DNA of 64,000 nt from Marinobacter sp. Arc7-DN-1 (GTDB taxonomy: Bacteria > Pseudomonadota > Gammaproteobacteria > Pseudomonadales > Oleiphilaceae): assembly GCF_003441595.1 (NCBI RefSeq), contig NZ_CP031848.1:1364001-1428000 (forward strand), written 5' to 3'. The notes under the pieces were generated by a model, which saw only the letters and a list, made by a program, of their open reading frames with translations, did not search any database and was not told the origin of the DNA. Both the position numbers and the translations under genes were made by a program. Position 1 is the first letter of the stretch; the number at the start of each line of letters is the position of its first letter. This document shows positions 12,211 to 18,934 of this stretch, in pieces.

Positions 12211-13929
12211 TTATTGAACCTCCTGATTGGCAGCCCCGCTGATGTCGGCCGCATAATCCATTACATGATAGATCATGTTCTGCTCATTGGTGCCAGTCAG
12301 CAGGCTGGCGCCCGGGCCCCGGGCATAAATGCCTACGTCCTCTCCAGCGTGAGTCTCACTACCAAGCGGCACCAATGCCTCCTGATGATAGCCCGGTGAA
12401 GTGGTATCCACACTGGTCAGGTCCATTCTTCCGGCGTTGACCGGGTCACTATAGGTACGGTCCGCATCGGTCTCACTTCCATAGTCGCGCATGCCACGGC
12501 CATTGGCGTAGCCCAGCGTAGTGTATGGCAGGTCATCCGCCGCCAGTGCAGGCTGATCTTCCTCAATACCCACGACCTTGCCCAGAATCGGGTTACCGCG
12601 CCTGGGATAACCCGCCATCGTCAATACGTGGCTGTGATCCGCGGTCACAATGATGAGCGTATCCTCCGCACTGGTCTGATCCACGGCCACCTGAACGGCT
12701 TTTGCCAGTTCAATGGTATCGGTCAGTGCGCCATAAGCACTTCCCGCGTGGCTGGCATGATCAATCCGCCCCGCCTCGACGGTCAGGAAGAAACCATCGG
12801 TATCATTATCGAGAATGTCGATGGCCTTGGCGGTCATCTCACTCAGTGAAGGCTCACCGGCAACGTCATTGCCACGATCCGCCTCGTATTGCATGTGAGA
12901 CTCGTTGAACAGGCCGAACAGCCGGGAGGTGGTTGCCGGGTCGACGCTGTCAAAACCTGCCTTGTCATACACGTATACGCCTTGTGGATACTGAGCCTGC
13001 CACTCGGCGATCAGGTTGCGGCTATCGGTACGGTCACCCTCAACACTGGACGTCGCATCCGGACTGTTGAATGCGGAATCCCCGGGCAGGAAGTGGCGAC
13101 GGCCACCGCCCATGACCACGTCAATCCCATCAACATCCACGCCGGCGTAACGCTGTTCCAGAAGTTGCTCAAAACTGACCAGTTGATCGGCAATGTCCTT
13201 GCAGCCGGCCTGAACCGCTTCGGCAGGCATATCCGAAATGTCTTCCCAGTTGCGTTCCGCCGATTTGGCATAGGTAGCGGCCGGTGTGGCGTGGGTAATG
13301 CGTGCGGTGGAGACCACACCGGTGGCTTTGCCGCTAATCTCTGCCAGCTCCAACGTCGTTATCAGCTCATTGCCGGCAGCCGAGCTGCAATCGCCGCGGA
13401 TAACGTCCTCATCCACGCCGAGCACGCCTACATCGGTTTTTACCCCAGACACTATAGCAGTCATAGTCCCGGCGGAATCGGGTACCTGTGCGTCCACATT
13501 GTAGGTTTTGGCTAAACCGGCGAAAGGAAAACGCTCGAAACTCAGTTGATGTTCTTCTCCAAGCTTGCCCAGATTCTGACCTTCCAGAATGCGGGCAGCG
13601 GTGACTGTGGACAGGCCCATGCCGTCGCCCACGAACAGGATGACGTTCTTTGCTTTACCCCGGGCGTCGGCAATGGCTTCCTGAACAGATTCGGATTGAG
13701 CAACAGCGTCCCCACTGCCGGTAACCGTGGCCCAGGTCTCTTTGGCTGCCACGATCTCCCGCTGGCCCTGCTGGAACCAGGAATTGGACAGAGATGTCTC
13801 GAGTTGCTTCGAGGAAAGACTGGTAACACTCTCATCGGCTGGCTGCACCGAGCTCTTGTCGTCGTCATTCATGCATCCGGTCAGACCGATCACTGAAGCC
13901 GTCAGTGCGCTGAAAAGGTATTTGTTCAT
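12211..13929 (-). CDS. Alkaline phosphatase, predicted lipoprotein (PhoA family)
   Basis: A 572-residue enzyme with a lipobox (GLTGC) and an acidic linker, so it is probably membrane-anchored. PhoA-family catalytic motifs are in order: FVGDGMG (metal-binding Asp), PDSAGTMTA (nucleophile Ser), ITHATPAA (His where E. coli PhoA has Asp153), EAGRIDHASHAG, TADHSHV and ETHAGED. It releases phosphate from organic esters outside the cytoplasm. It starts 11 bases after the paralogous phosphatase, with AAGGAG seven bases before its ATG. Its middle third is DNA-identical to that paralogue. Confidence 0.93.
   Translation of the reverse strand: MNKYLFSALTASVIGLTGCMNDDDKSSVQPADESVTSLSSKQLETSLSNSWFQQGQREIVAAKETWATVTGSGDAVAQSESVQEAIADARGKAKNVILFVGDGMGLSTVTAARILEGQNLGKLGEEHQLSFERFPFAGLAKTYNVDAQVPDSAGTMTAIVSGVKTDVGVLGVDEDVIRGDCSSAAGNELITTLELAEISGKATGVVSTARITHATPAATYAKSAERNWEDISDMPAEAVQAGCKDIADQLVSFEQLLEQRYAGVDVDGIDVVMGGGRRHFLPGDSAFNSPDATSSVEGDRTDSRNLIAEWQAQYPQGVYVYDKAGFDSVDPATTSRLFGLFNESHMQYEADRGNDVAGEPSLSEMTAKAIDILDNDTDGFFLTVEAGRIDHASHAGSAYGALTDTIELAKAVQVAVDQTSAEDTLIIVTADHSHVLTMAGYPRRGNPILGKVVGIEEDQPALAADDLPYTTLGYANGRGMRDYGSETDADRTYSDPVNAGRMDLTSVDTTSPGYHQEALVPLGSETHAGEDVGIYARGPGASLLTGTNEQNMIYHVMDYAADISGAANQEVQ
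12806..13325. repeat. Identical 520-bp block, copy 1 (phoA conversion tract)
   Basis: Read base by base, this block is the same as 14518-15037, at an offset of 1712. On both sides the two genes diverge at once, at many synonymous and non-synonymous sites. It encodes the segment from about STARITHATPAATYA to KAIDILDN. The pattern indicates recent gene conversion or unequal crossover between tandem paralogues. Confidence 0.95.
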
Positions 13930-13940
13930 TGCCTTGCTCC

Positions 13941-15524
13941 TTATTCTTCAATTAAGCCCAGGGCCTGATCGATCAGGTGAAAAACCGTGCTTTGCTCAAT
14001 GGTGCCCTGCGCCAGATGAGCACCTGGTCCTTTTGCATGCAGGCTGACATCCTCACCGGAATGGGTCTCGCTACCGAGCGGAACCAATGCTTCCTGGTGA
14101 TAACCGGTGGTGGTGGTATCCACGCCAGTGAGATTCTGACGTCCGGCGTTAGGTGCCTGGCTGTAGACCGCGTCTGAATCTGTTTCCATGCCGAGATTAC
14201 GAAAACCGAGTCCGTTGGCGTATCCCAGGGTTGTGTAGGGCATGCCATCCTCGGCCATTGCCGGTTGTGTTTCACCAACACTCACAACTTTGCCCAGAAT
14301 GGGATTGCCTCGCTTGGGGTAACCGGCCATGGTAAATACATGGCTGTGGTCGGCGGTGACCATCACCAGCGTCTCTTCCGGGTTGGTGTTCTCCATCGCC
14401 TGCTTGACCGCATCGGAAAGTTCAATGGCTTCGGTCAGGGCACTGGCGGCATTACCGGCATGGTGGGCGTGGTCGACGCGGCCAGCTTCGACCACCAGCA
14501 AATAGCCCTTGTCATTGTTATCGAGAATGTCGATGGCCTTGGCGGTCATCTCACTCAGTGAAGGCTCACCGGCAACGTCATTGCCACGATCCGCCTCGTA
14601 TTGCATGTGAGACTCGTTGAACAGGCCGAACAGCCGGGAGGTGGTTGCCGGGTCGACGCTGTCAAAACCTGCCTTGTCATACACGTATACGCCTTGTGGA
14701 TACTGAGCCTGCCACTCGGCGATCAGGTTGCGGCTATCGGTACGGTCACCCTCAACACTGGACGTCGCATCCGGACTGTTGAATGCGGAATCCCCGGGCA
14801 GGAAGTGGCGACGGCCACCGCCCATGACCACGTCAATCCCATCAACATCCACGCCGGCGTAACGCTGTTCCAGAAGTTGCTCAAAACTGACCAGTTGATC
14901 GGCAATGTCCTTGCAGCCGGCCTGAACCGCTTCGGCAGGCATATCCGAAATGTCTTCCCAGTTGCGTTCCGCCGATTTGGCATAGGTAGCGGCCGGTGTG
15001 GCGTGGGTAATGCGTGCGGTGGAGACCACACCGGTGGATAAACCCTTGATTTCCGCAAGTTCCAGGGCCGTTACTACTTCATTGCCTGCGACCGTGCCGC
15101 AATCACCCCGCTGGACATCCTCGTCCACGCCCAGCACACCCGCATCGGTTTTCAAACCTGACATCATGGCGGTCATGGTGCCAGCTGAATCCGGAACCTG
15201 GGCATCGGTGTTATAGGTTTTCACGAGTGTCGAGAAGGGAAAGCTTTCAAAGCTCAGCAGATTTTCCTCGCCGGGACGGCCCTGCCTCTGGCCTTCCAGA
15301 ATGCGCGCAGCGGTAAGGGTGGACACCCCCATGCCATCGCCCACAAACAGAATGACGTTTTTCGCTTTATCCGAGGACTTCAGGGAGAGCTTCTGCTGAA
15401 GCTGTGCCTCGGCGTTACTAAACCAGCCATTGTCCTTTTGTGAGGTCGGTAGTATCCCTGCGAGGACACTGGCGGACAATGCCAGCCCGATTGCCACCGG
15501 AACTAACGTTCTTTCCAGATTCAT
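13941..15524 (-). CDS. Alkaline phosphatase, secreted (PhoA family)
   Basis: Starting at the ATG at 15524 (AAAGGA eight bases upstream) gives 527 residues with a Sec-type signal peptide and no lipobox cysteine. The catalytic motifs are the same as in its neighbour: FVGDGMG, PDSAGTMTA, ITHATPAA, EAGRVDHAHHAG, TADHSHV and ETHSGED. It is the first gene of a tandem pair of paralogues, one periplasmic or released and one lipid-anchored. On the minus strand upstream there is a CGTCATAACG that resembles one Pho-box half; I could not find a full Pho box. An alternative start at 15560 adds a non-signal-like extension. Confidence 0.92.
   Translation of the reverse strand: MNLERTLVPVAIGLALSASVLAGILPTSQKDNGWFSNAEAQLQQKLSLKSSDKAKNVILFVGDGMGVSTLTAARILEGQRQGRPGEENLLSFESFPFSTLVKTYNTDAQVPDSAGTMTAMMSGLKTDAGVLGVDEDVQRGDCGTVAGNEVVTALELAEIKGLSTGVVSTARITHATPAATYAKSAERNWEDISDMPAEAVQAGCKDIADQLVSFEQLLEQRYAGVDVDGIDVVMGGGRRHFLPGDSAFNSPDATSSVEGDRTDSRNLIAEWQAQYPQGVYVYDKAGFDSVDPATTSRLFGLFNESHMQYEADRGNDVAGEPSLSEMTAKAIDILDNNDKGYLLVVEAGRVDHAHHAGNAASALTEAIELSDAVKQAMENTNPEETLVMVTADHSHVFTMAGYPKRGNPILGKVVSVGETQPAMAEDGMPYTTLGYANGLGFRNLGMETDSDAVYSQAPNAGRQNLTGVDTTTTGYHQEALVPLGSETHSGEDVSLHAKGPGAHLAQGTIEQSTVFHLIDQALGLIEE
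14518..15037. repeat. Identical 520-bp block, copy 2 (phoA conversion tract)
   Basis: Second copy of the tract described at 12806-13325. The boundaries are sharp: the shared sequence starts at TTATCGAGAATG and ends at CACACCGGTGG. Confidence 0.95.
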
Positions 15525-15753
15525 AGCGCACATCCTTTCAACGGTGTTGTTGTCTGCCACTCCGGTACAACCTGTTCATCGAACAGAATTCCGGATCGAC
15601 TCCGCTAAAAAGATAGGGGCTCGTTATGACGTTAATCCTGCATTTGTGTTACTCAGGCATGAAGGTTGCTTGGCAGCTTCAATACTTTCCTCCCCCGGAC
15701 GCTGGCCAGGACCTGCCGGCGCGGACAGAGGCACGCCGGCGGAAATCCAAGCG

Positions 15754-16560: not shown

Positions 16561-17829
16561 ATGAACGCCAAGACCTCTGACAACCTGGAATCGCATAAAG
16601 TCATATCCCCTGGCGAAACCGATTCCACTGGCAACTGGAAGGATCCGAAACGCTATATGTGGTTGCTCGGCCCTGCCCTGCCGGGTATTGGGCTCGCGGC
16701 CCTGACCGGTTACGCCCTGGCACCGAAGAAGCTGAAAGCCCTGGCCTGGACCGGCCCGGCCCTGGTACACGGCATCATCCCGGCGCTGGACCGTGCCATT
16801 GGCGAGGATCAGAGCAATCCGCCGGAATCGGCGGTGCAGACCCTGGAACAGGACAAGTACTACGACCGGATCGTAAAAGCCTTTATTCCGACCCAGTACG
16901 CCATGACCTTTTTGGGCGCCTGGCTGGCCAGCCGCAGGAATACCCCCCTGGACGACAGGATTGGCCTGACGCTCACCGTGGGCGCCATCAATGGTGTGGG
17001 CATCAACACCGCCCATGAGCTGGGCCACAAATCGAACAGGCTGAACAAGCTGTTGGCGATGGCGGCTTTGGCACCCACCGGGTATACCCACTTTGTTGTC
17101 GAACACAACTTCGGCCATCACATGCGGGTGGCCACACCGGAGGATCCGGCCAGCAGCCGGATGGGCGAAAGCTTCTGGAAGTTCCTGCCACGGACAGTAA
17201 TAGGCGGCATCAAGTCCTCCATCAGGATTGAGAAGGCGAGACTTGCCCGCAAAGGCAAGGGCTTCTGGAGCCTGGACAATGAGCTGCTTCAGGGCTGGGC
17301 CATGAGTGCCGGGTTCTTTGGTGCGACGACGTTGATTTGCGGCCCTCGGGCGTTGCCGTTCCTGGCGGCGCAGGCGGTGTATGGCGCTAGTTTGCTGGAG
17401 AGCGTGAATTACATTGAGCACTATGGCCTGCTGCGCCAGAAGGACAAGAACGGAAAATACGAGCGCACCCAGCCGGAGCATAGCTGGAACAGTAATCATA
17501 TTGTGACCAATCTGTTCCTGTATCAGTTGCAGCGACATTCAGATCACCATGCCCATCCTCAACGCAGCTTCCAGGCTTTGAGGCACTTCGAGAAGGCGCC
17601 GCAGTTGCCGGGTGGTTATGCGTCGATGCTGCTGCCGGCTTACCTGCCGCAGTGGTGGTATGAAACCATGGATAAGCGGGTGATTGATCACTACGAGGGG
17701 GATCTGAGCAAGATCAACTGGGATCCGGATCGTAAGGAAGAGCTGATGGCCAAATATGCGGATTACGCAGCGGAGGTGGCGGCTGAGGCGAGGGCCCGGC
17801 GCGCTGCCGCCAAATCCGAAGCTGCCTGA
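16561..17829 (+). CDS. alkB: Alkane 1-monooxygenase
   Basis: A 422-residue integral-membrane diiron enzyme that oxidises the terminal carbon of medium-chain n-alkanes using rubredoxin as electron donor. The histidine motifs are intact: HELGHK, EHNFGHH and LQRHSDHHA, plus the AlkB signature NYIEHYGL. Hydrophobic helices precede and separate the His boxes. The Shine-Dalgarno sequence is CAGGAG. No rubredoxin or rubredoxin reductase gene is adjacent, so electron partners must be elsewhere. The C-terminal tail is Ala/Arg-rich. A long hairpin repeat follows 33 bases after the stop. Confidence 0.96.
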   Translation: MNAKTSDNLESHKVISPGETDSTGNWKDPKRYMWLLGPALPGIGLAALTGYALAPKKLKALAWTGPALVHGIIPALDRAIGEDQSNPPESAVQTLEQDKYYDRIVKAFIPTQYAMTFLGAWLASRRNTPLDDRIGLTLTVGAINGVGINTAHELGHKSNRLNKLLAMAALAPTGYTHFVVEHNFGHHMRVATPEDPASSRMGESFWKFLPRTVIGGIKSSIRIEKARLARKGKGFWSLDNELLQGWAMSAGFFGATTLICGPRALPFLAAQAVYGASLLESVNYIEHYGLLRQKDKNGKYERTQPEHSWNSNHIVTNLFLYQLQRHSDHHAHPQRSFQALRHFEKAPQLPGGYASMLLPAYLPQWWYETMDKRVIDHYEGDLSKINWDPDRKEELMAKYADYAAEVAAEARARRAAAKSEAA

Positions 17830-17862: not shown

Positions 17863-17972
17863 GCAGTCGACCGGGGCACTCCTTCCGGGAGACGCCATAA
17901 ACCCATCCCTGGGGGCTTGAGCGCAGCATCCCTGCTGCGCACACTCCCGGAAGGAGCGCCCCGGTCGACTGC
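17863..17972. repeat. Long intergenic hairpin element A
   Basis: Arms of 29 bases (17863-17891 and 17944-17972) pair with one mismatch. The 52-base core carries smaller hairpins such as GCGCAGC-loop-GCTGCGC. It sits between the convergent ends of alkB and the crotonase gene. Read on the minus strand its core (TGTGCG, AGC, GGATG) is a diverged version of the cores in elements B (38455) and C (45084). A role as a bidirectional terminator or mRNA 3' stabiliser is likely. Confidence 0.85.
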
Positions 17973-18826: not shown

Positions 18827-18882
18827 TGCCTTCACCTTATATATCGTTTTTCTTTTCCGCGTGCTGCACCTAAGTCTGGGCG

Positions 18883-18920
18883 CAATCGGCTGGGACCCCT
18901 TTCAGGGACCCAGCCGATTG
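18883..18920 (-). terminator. Hairpin between acyl-CoA dehydrogenase and crotonase genes
   Basis: CAATCGGCTGGGACCC pairs with GGGACCCAGCCGATTG with a single mismatch. It lies 14 bases past the dehydrogenase stop. There is no long T run, so it may be an attenuating or RNA-stabilising hairpin rather than a full terminator. Confidence 0.65.
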
Positions 18921-18934
18921 TGCCTCCTCTCAGA

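Follow-up and report, generated by a model that had tools for sequence, protein, structure and literature searches.

The window, the whole stretch of 64,000 nucleotides of Marinobacter sp. Arc7-DN-1 that was analysed, carries two adjacent alkaline phosphatase genes (PF00245) on its minus strand. The upstream gene of the pair, gene B (13941..15560, minus strand), is paralogue 1 and encodes a Sec-secreted protein, its likely start being the ATG at 15524, after AAAGG, rather than the GTG at 15560. Gene A (12211..13929, minus strand) is paralogue 2 and encodes a lipoprotein of 572 aa, an assignment based on its profile match and on its position in the trees of the N- and C-terminal parts. That one gene encodes a lipoprotein and the other a secreted form had been proposed in the first-pass annotation, and this agrees with the lipobox LTGC of gene A and the Sec signal without Cys of gene B. 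The two proteins score 435 and 426 bits in a search with the PF00245 profile (curated cut-off 24.4), covering profile positions 1-422 of 423, and the closest solved structures to both are of the animal tissue-nonspecific phosphatase sort. Residues S125, D75, T188, R199, E358, D404, H405 and H500 are invariant in the alignment, and the DSAGT nucleophile and the metal-ligand motifs are present; the catalytic and metal-binding roles of the invariant residues are presumed here from knowledge of the family.

The stop of gene B and the start of gene A are separated by 11 bp (13930..13940, minus strand; GGAGCAAGGCA), and the shortness of this gap together with its ribosome-binding-site-like GGAG suggests that the two genes probably form one operon. 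The best Pho box candidate upstream of gene B matches at 10/14, a value equalled by ~6% of shuffles, and no Pho box is claimed. Two inverted repeats are also found in the window: one of 29 nt (97% complementary, 52-nt spacer) at 17863-17972, just past the end of an alkane monooxygenase gene (16561-17829), and a terminator-like one of 20 nt (90%, 6-nt loop) at 18879-18924, between acyl-CoA pathway genes.

An exact 520-bp tract in both genes

The two genes share an identical tract, located at 12806..13325 in gene A (minus strand, residues 202-375) and at 14518..15037 in gene B (minus strand, residues 175-348). An exact shared block had been noted before, and our re-comparison recovers the same one: it is maximal, 520 bp long with 0 mismatches at an offset of 1712, and both copies are in the same reading frame and at homologous positions. 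The abrupt loss of identity previously described at both edges is also evident, as mismatches start immediately and amount to 24/60 and 22/60 in the 60 bp just outside the block, and the aligned flanks show only 67% DNA identity on the 5' side (gene A residues 61-201) and 65% on the 3' side, so that no equally high identity extends beyond the block. At an identity of 66%, the probability of 520 consecutive matches is ~10^-94. Among codons for the same amino acid, 44% and 40% are identical in the flanks vs 100% in the block (166/166 synonymous-informative codons), and a silent-codon permutation test of this pair gives P = 0.001, the lowest value that 1000 shuffles can return. The 121 synonymous sites in the block show zero differences, which places the silent divergence since the event below ~0.025 (95% bound).

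These two copies of the block are the only ones in the genome, which is a single contig of 4.30 Mb, and plasmid records yielded no match. An artefact of assembly or polishing is very unlikely as its source, because two copies that differ by ~33% would not be merged; moreover, the genome is one contig, and both reading frames and their flanks are intact and correctly paralogous.

The tract was said to cover the active-site region ITHATPAA, and this motif indeed lies inside, together with an Arg; we take, from established knowledge of the family, the Thr of the motif to be the Mg-site Thr and the Arg to bind phosphate. However, the block contains only part of the active site, because the nucleophile (DSAGT) and the Zn-ligand motifs lie outside it.

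The tandem pair in related genomes

An identically ordered tandem pair is present in 79/80 best relatives in one-genome-per-species data, the exception being a single-copy gene in Thalassolituus (L070), and two copies are found in 64/66 positive genomes of one sampled family. By a crude signal-sequence rule, a Sec signal is assigned to gene 1 in 112/115 pairs and a lipobox to gene 2 in 107/115, and the order of a predicted secreted gene 1 and a predicted lipoprotein gene 2 is conserved across many Gammaproteobacteria. The first-pass annotation had suggested that conversion homogenises the core while the localisation signals stay distinct; by the same rule this extends far beyond the present strain, to nearly all of the 115 pairs. 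Within the genus, full-length relatives occur in only 3/124 genomes. One of the other two, the congener G028, bears its own tandem phosphatase pair (L123, 4199-7332), the proteins of which are only ~60-63% identical to those of the window (12211-15560), and the two pairs have common neighbours, namely an acyl-CoA dehydrogenase, an enoyl-CoA hydratase and an alkane monooxygenase on one side and a chemoreceptor on the other. The presence of the G028 pair at the matching site, while 121/124 genomes of the genus are without full-length relatives, can be explained either by same-site replacement or by deep divergence with many losses.

Most tandem pairs are ~63-74% identical overall. Among 82 other pairs, no exact run between paralogues is longer than 68 bp, and 68 bp is also the limit in a second set of 63 pairs, which largely overlaps the first. 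L202, L213, L227 and L209 seemed to contain exact runs of 88-173 bp, but none of these remained once the count was restricted to homologous positions; the one in L213 is due to overlapping stop-to-stop frames. The tract in the window is seven times longer than the next longest run and is therefore recent. In a species-level comparison, the DNA of congeners is 63-70% identical and lacks the tract, which none of the other species sampled carries. These observations, together with the identical silent sites, the abrupt edges and flanks that belong to two anciently separated paralogue families, bear out the earlier suggestion of recent gene conversion, and such conversion, or an equivalent recombination, is the best and by far the simplest explanation of the 520-bp identity. 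The donor was sought from diagnostic residues and third-position G+C without an answer: the signals at 235, 237 and 276 are mixed, and third-position G+C is alike in the block and its flanks. Donor and recipient are not separable, because hardly any residues within the block are paralogue-specific in the relatives.

Recombination between the two genes is expected sometimes to leave, by unequal crossover, a gene with the start of gene 1 and the end of gene 2. The Thalassolituus gene L070 fits this exactly, its N-terminal diagnostic residues giving a log-odds of +64.5 and its C-terminal ones -33.5, as in a hybrid of a gene 1 N-part and a gene 2 C-part. Most of the remaining single copies resemble gene 2 over their whole length; L134 is a weaker hybrid candidate (+18.6, gene 1-like, in the N-part and -12.2, gene 2-like, in the C-part). 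The block in the window might likewise come from a reciprocal or unequal crossover, with temporary triplication and then deletion, or from a homologous block imported from another strain into both genes, instead of from non-reciprocal conversion. Tandem co-directional genes do favour unequal crossover, and L070 resembles a product of crossover deletion; however, either route needs two events to reach the state of the window, the copy number stays at two in almost all positive genomes of the family sampled, and no donor DNA was found in congeners. We regard this origin as rather improbable, and the block is read below as a conversion tract.

Middle segments and ends of the genes

Trees of whole genes and of DNA mix the paralogues and were replaced by segment-wise protein trees. 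In the trees of the N part (residues 60-174) and the C part (480-535) there is a single clean split between the paralogues (support 99 and 98), whereas in the trees of the middle (176-347 and 401-478) genes group by organism, with 23 and 22 label changes. A paralogue clade is rejected by the AU test for residues 176-347 (p-AU = 0.0009, dlnL = 186) and for residues 401-478 (p-AU = 0.01, dlnL = 112), and under a site-mixture model it is still rejected for 176-347 (P = 0.004, 111 log-likelihood units). Because the groups in this first test were picked after a first tree, the analysis was repeated on 31 new pairs held out, with the regions fixed in advance; the N and C splits are again clean (support 100 and 99.8) and the paralogue clade is rejected in both middle segments (P = 0.007 and 0.005).

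Identity comparisons point the same way. Within-genome identity between paralogues exceeds mean identity between orthologues in 86% and 96% of genomes in the two middle segments vs 1% and 0% at the ends, and in the hold-out pairs in 84% and 88% vs 0% and 6%. The duplication predates the species, as a single split separates the paralogues in the N and C parts and the flanks are orthologous. Paralogues are thus closer to each other than orthologues in at least five species, the criterion used for concerted evolution, in the middle segments only; the ongoing high identity over the full length that characterizes full-length concerted evolution is not seen, since the ends are paralogue-specific.

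Could the pattern in the middle reflect no more than conservation or poor resolution, after a duplication that only just preceded the species radiation? Conservation is indeed higher there than at the ends, and diagnostic residues are few. Nevertheless, poor resolution predicts equal similarity within and between genomes, and the similarity observed within genomes is higher, above that of orthologues; moreover, the AU test rejects the paralogue split instead of leaving it undecided. Simple conservation or lack of resolution, which we consider very unlikely, is rejected by the AU tests, the identity comparisons, the hold-out pairs and the following comparison of sister species.

Sites were counted as cis when both genes are alike within a species and different between sister species, and as trans in the mirror case, the two being expected to be equal by chance. 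For amino acids, cis:trans is 91:29 and 53:10 in the two middle segments compared with 18:14 and 18:9 for the ends, a small cis excess being present at the ends too in the larger set. The cis sites are clustered along the gene (P = 0.0005), and this clustering together with the cis excess favours tracts. Silent sites are mostly saturated, and their excess in the middle over the ends is weak (P = 0.016 in 79 pairs, non-significant after dereplication); codon identity at cis amino-acid sites shows no excess (0.51 vs 0.51 elsewhere). A clear silent-site cis excess is found in certain pairs only, namely L077/L101 (21:2) and L033/L043 (18:4), both in residues 176-347, and also L095/L098. Silent-codon permutation further points to shorter tracts in L042 (P = 0.001), L029 (P = 0.004), L043 (P = 0.006) and L074 (P = 0.008), and 11/83 pairs fall under P = 0.05, uncorrected for 83 tests. 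Species pairs that are close (over 80%) have undergone almost no conversion after diverging, and the process is therefore rare or slow.

The weak silent-site signal and the absence of a codon excess mean that the older events are visible only in the protein and may be partly convergence. If both enzymes adapt to one cell, to salinity or to temperature, exposed residues of the middle could become alike per organism, and the codon and silent-site results at cis sites would agree with this. Such an explanation fails for the 520 bp of the window, which are identical at all silent sites; it also fits poorly with cis sites that lie in runs, with the strong silent-site cis excess in particular pairs and with a dlnL above 100 in short middle segments and none at the ends. 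We consider convergence an unlikely source of the broad pattern. At the protein level, the N- and C-terminal parts stay paralogue-specific while the middle is shared in many Gammaproteobacteria; we infer that conversion caused the old signal, and recurrent conversion is likely, rather than proven, to underlie the old events.

At finer scale the profile is a mosaic, in which diagnostic columns from 79 other pairs define four paralogue-specific islands on gene B (all minus strand): residues 60-113 (15222..15383), residues 162-174 (15039..15077; K172 and L174), residues 389-400 (14361..14396), which are weaker, and residues 479-535 (13956..14126), strongest at 505-535. A stretch at ~120-160 is also without paralogue signal. 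The second island ends right at the edge of the 520-bp tract, which begins immediately past diagnostic residues 172 and 174 and stops just short of 351. On a moderate model of gene B (pLDDT 65), the islands include a helix at 79-92, strands at 109-114, 397-403, 505-510 and 519-522, and a helix at 524-534. Two dimer-interface residues of E. coli PhoA, T59 and T81, would fall on or next to diagnostic positions 82 and 109-113 in the first island. For the alkaline phosphatase of Vibrio, probes of the interface were introduced at residues 60 and 486, opposite partner residues 355 and 42, in the numbering of that enzyme (PMC6325577). It is possible, and we put it forward only tentatively, that the islands form a selected identity code, e.g. 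for subunit pairing or for the secreted vs membrane-anchored state, such that conversion refreshes the catalytic middle and is purged where it erases the code. In L070 the start of gene 1 and the end of gene 2 coexist in a single protein, and this speaks against a strict incompatibility within the subunit. Both loss of homology and selection predict the borders of the tract.

Proposed segment-limited conversion and its significance

The contrast between the middle and the ends, replicated in the hold-out pairs, and the hybrid gene in Thalassolituus suggest that the window shows a fresh event in an old, infrequent and segment-limited concerted evolution. The 520-bp block would then be a recent conversion tract between anciently duplicated tandem co-directional genes and the newest visible case of a long-lasting, infrequent process, a reading to which we give a probability of roughly 0.8. 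Homologous recombination between the two genes would overwrite the middle of one gene with the corresponding part of its partner, and the N-terminal part (the signal and the first strands) and the C-terminal part would keep their paralogue-specific sequence. RecA-type recombination probably starts inside the more similar core and stops where identity fails, and selection probably removes events running into the gene ends. Each cell would thereby retain one secreted and one lipid-anchored enzyme with a common evolving catalytic core.

Several known systems are similar in part. In mammals, one segment of the tandem paralogues TLR1 and TLR6 has undergone repeated homogenisation in many species, its borders remaining nearly constant (PMC2077338). 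The PhoA pair resembles them in being tandem, with a homogenised segment and a paralogue-specific remainder; however, TLR1/TLR6 have one contiguous C-terminal segment and a clear silent-site signal, whereas the PhoA pair concerns secreted enzymes of bacteria, with two middle segments, both ends spared, and mostly old events plus one very recent. Conversion of domain 3 in RF1/RF2 similarly affects ancient bacterial paralogues and is confined to the functionally shared part, but it comprises two events in two lineages between genes not described as tandem (PMC4530459), in contrast to a tandem pair with ~20 label changes per middle tree in many lineages. A screen for prokaryotic concerted evolution reported 26 genes, all full-length cases with no phosphatase listed, and named partial cases as future work; the PhoA pair shares with these genes a recurrent, long-lasting homogenisation of paralogues and differs in being partial. 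Conversion between duplicate genes is also known for tufA/tufB in Salmonella, where the fitted processivity of 0.998 (PMC5485169) corresponds to tracts of about 500 nt in each direction, a length close to our 520 bp. The tuf copies, however, are almost identical and separated by 762 kb, whereas the PhoA genes are adjacent and ~66% identical. No report of tandem PhoA pairs or of PhoA conversion was found in the literature covered, which leaves out most subscription journals; segment-limited conversion is already known as a process, and the PhoA case is apparently new.

Long-lasting concerted evolution has been documented for a few dozen prokaryotic genes only, mostly with copies that are nearly identical over their full length. 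The marine phosphatase pair described here is widespread and appears to share only its middle over long evolutionary time while its ends remain separate, and one genome appears to have captured a fresh event. Two histories are mixed in trees of whole PhoA sequences, which should be read with this in mind, and the pair makes it testable whether the borders of conversion are set by selection or by the mechanics of recombination.
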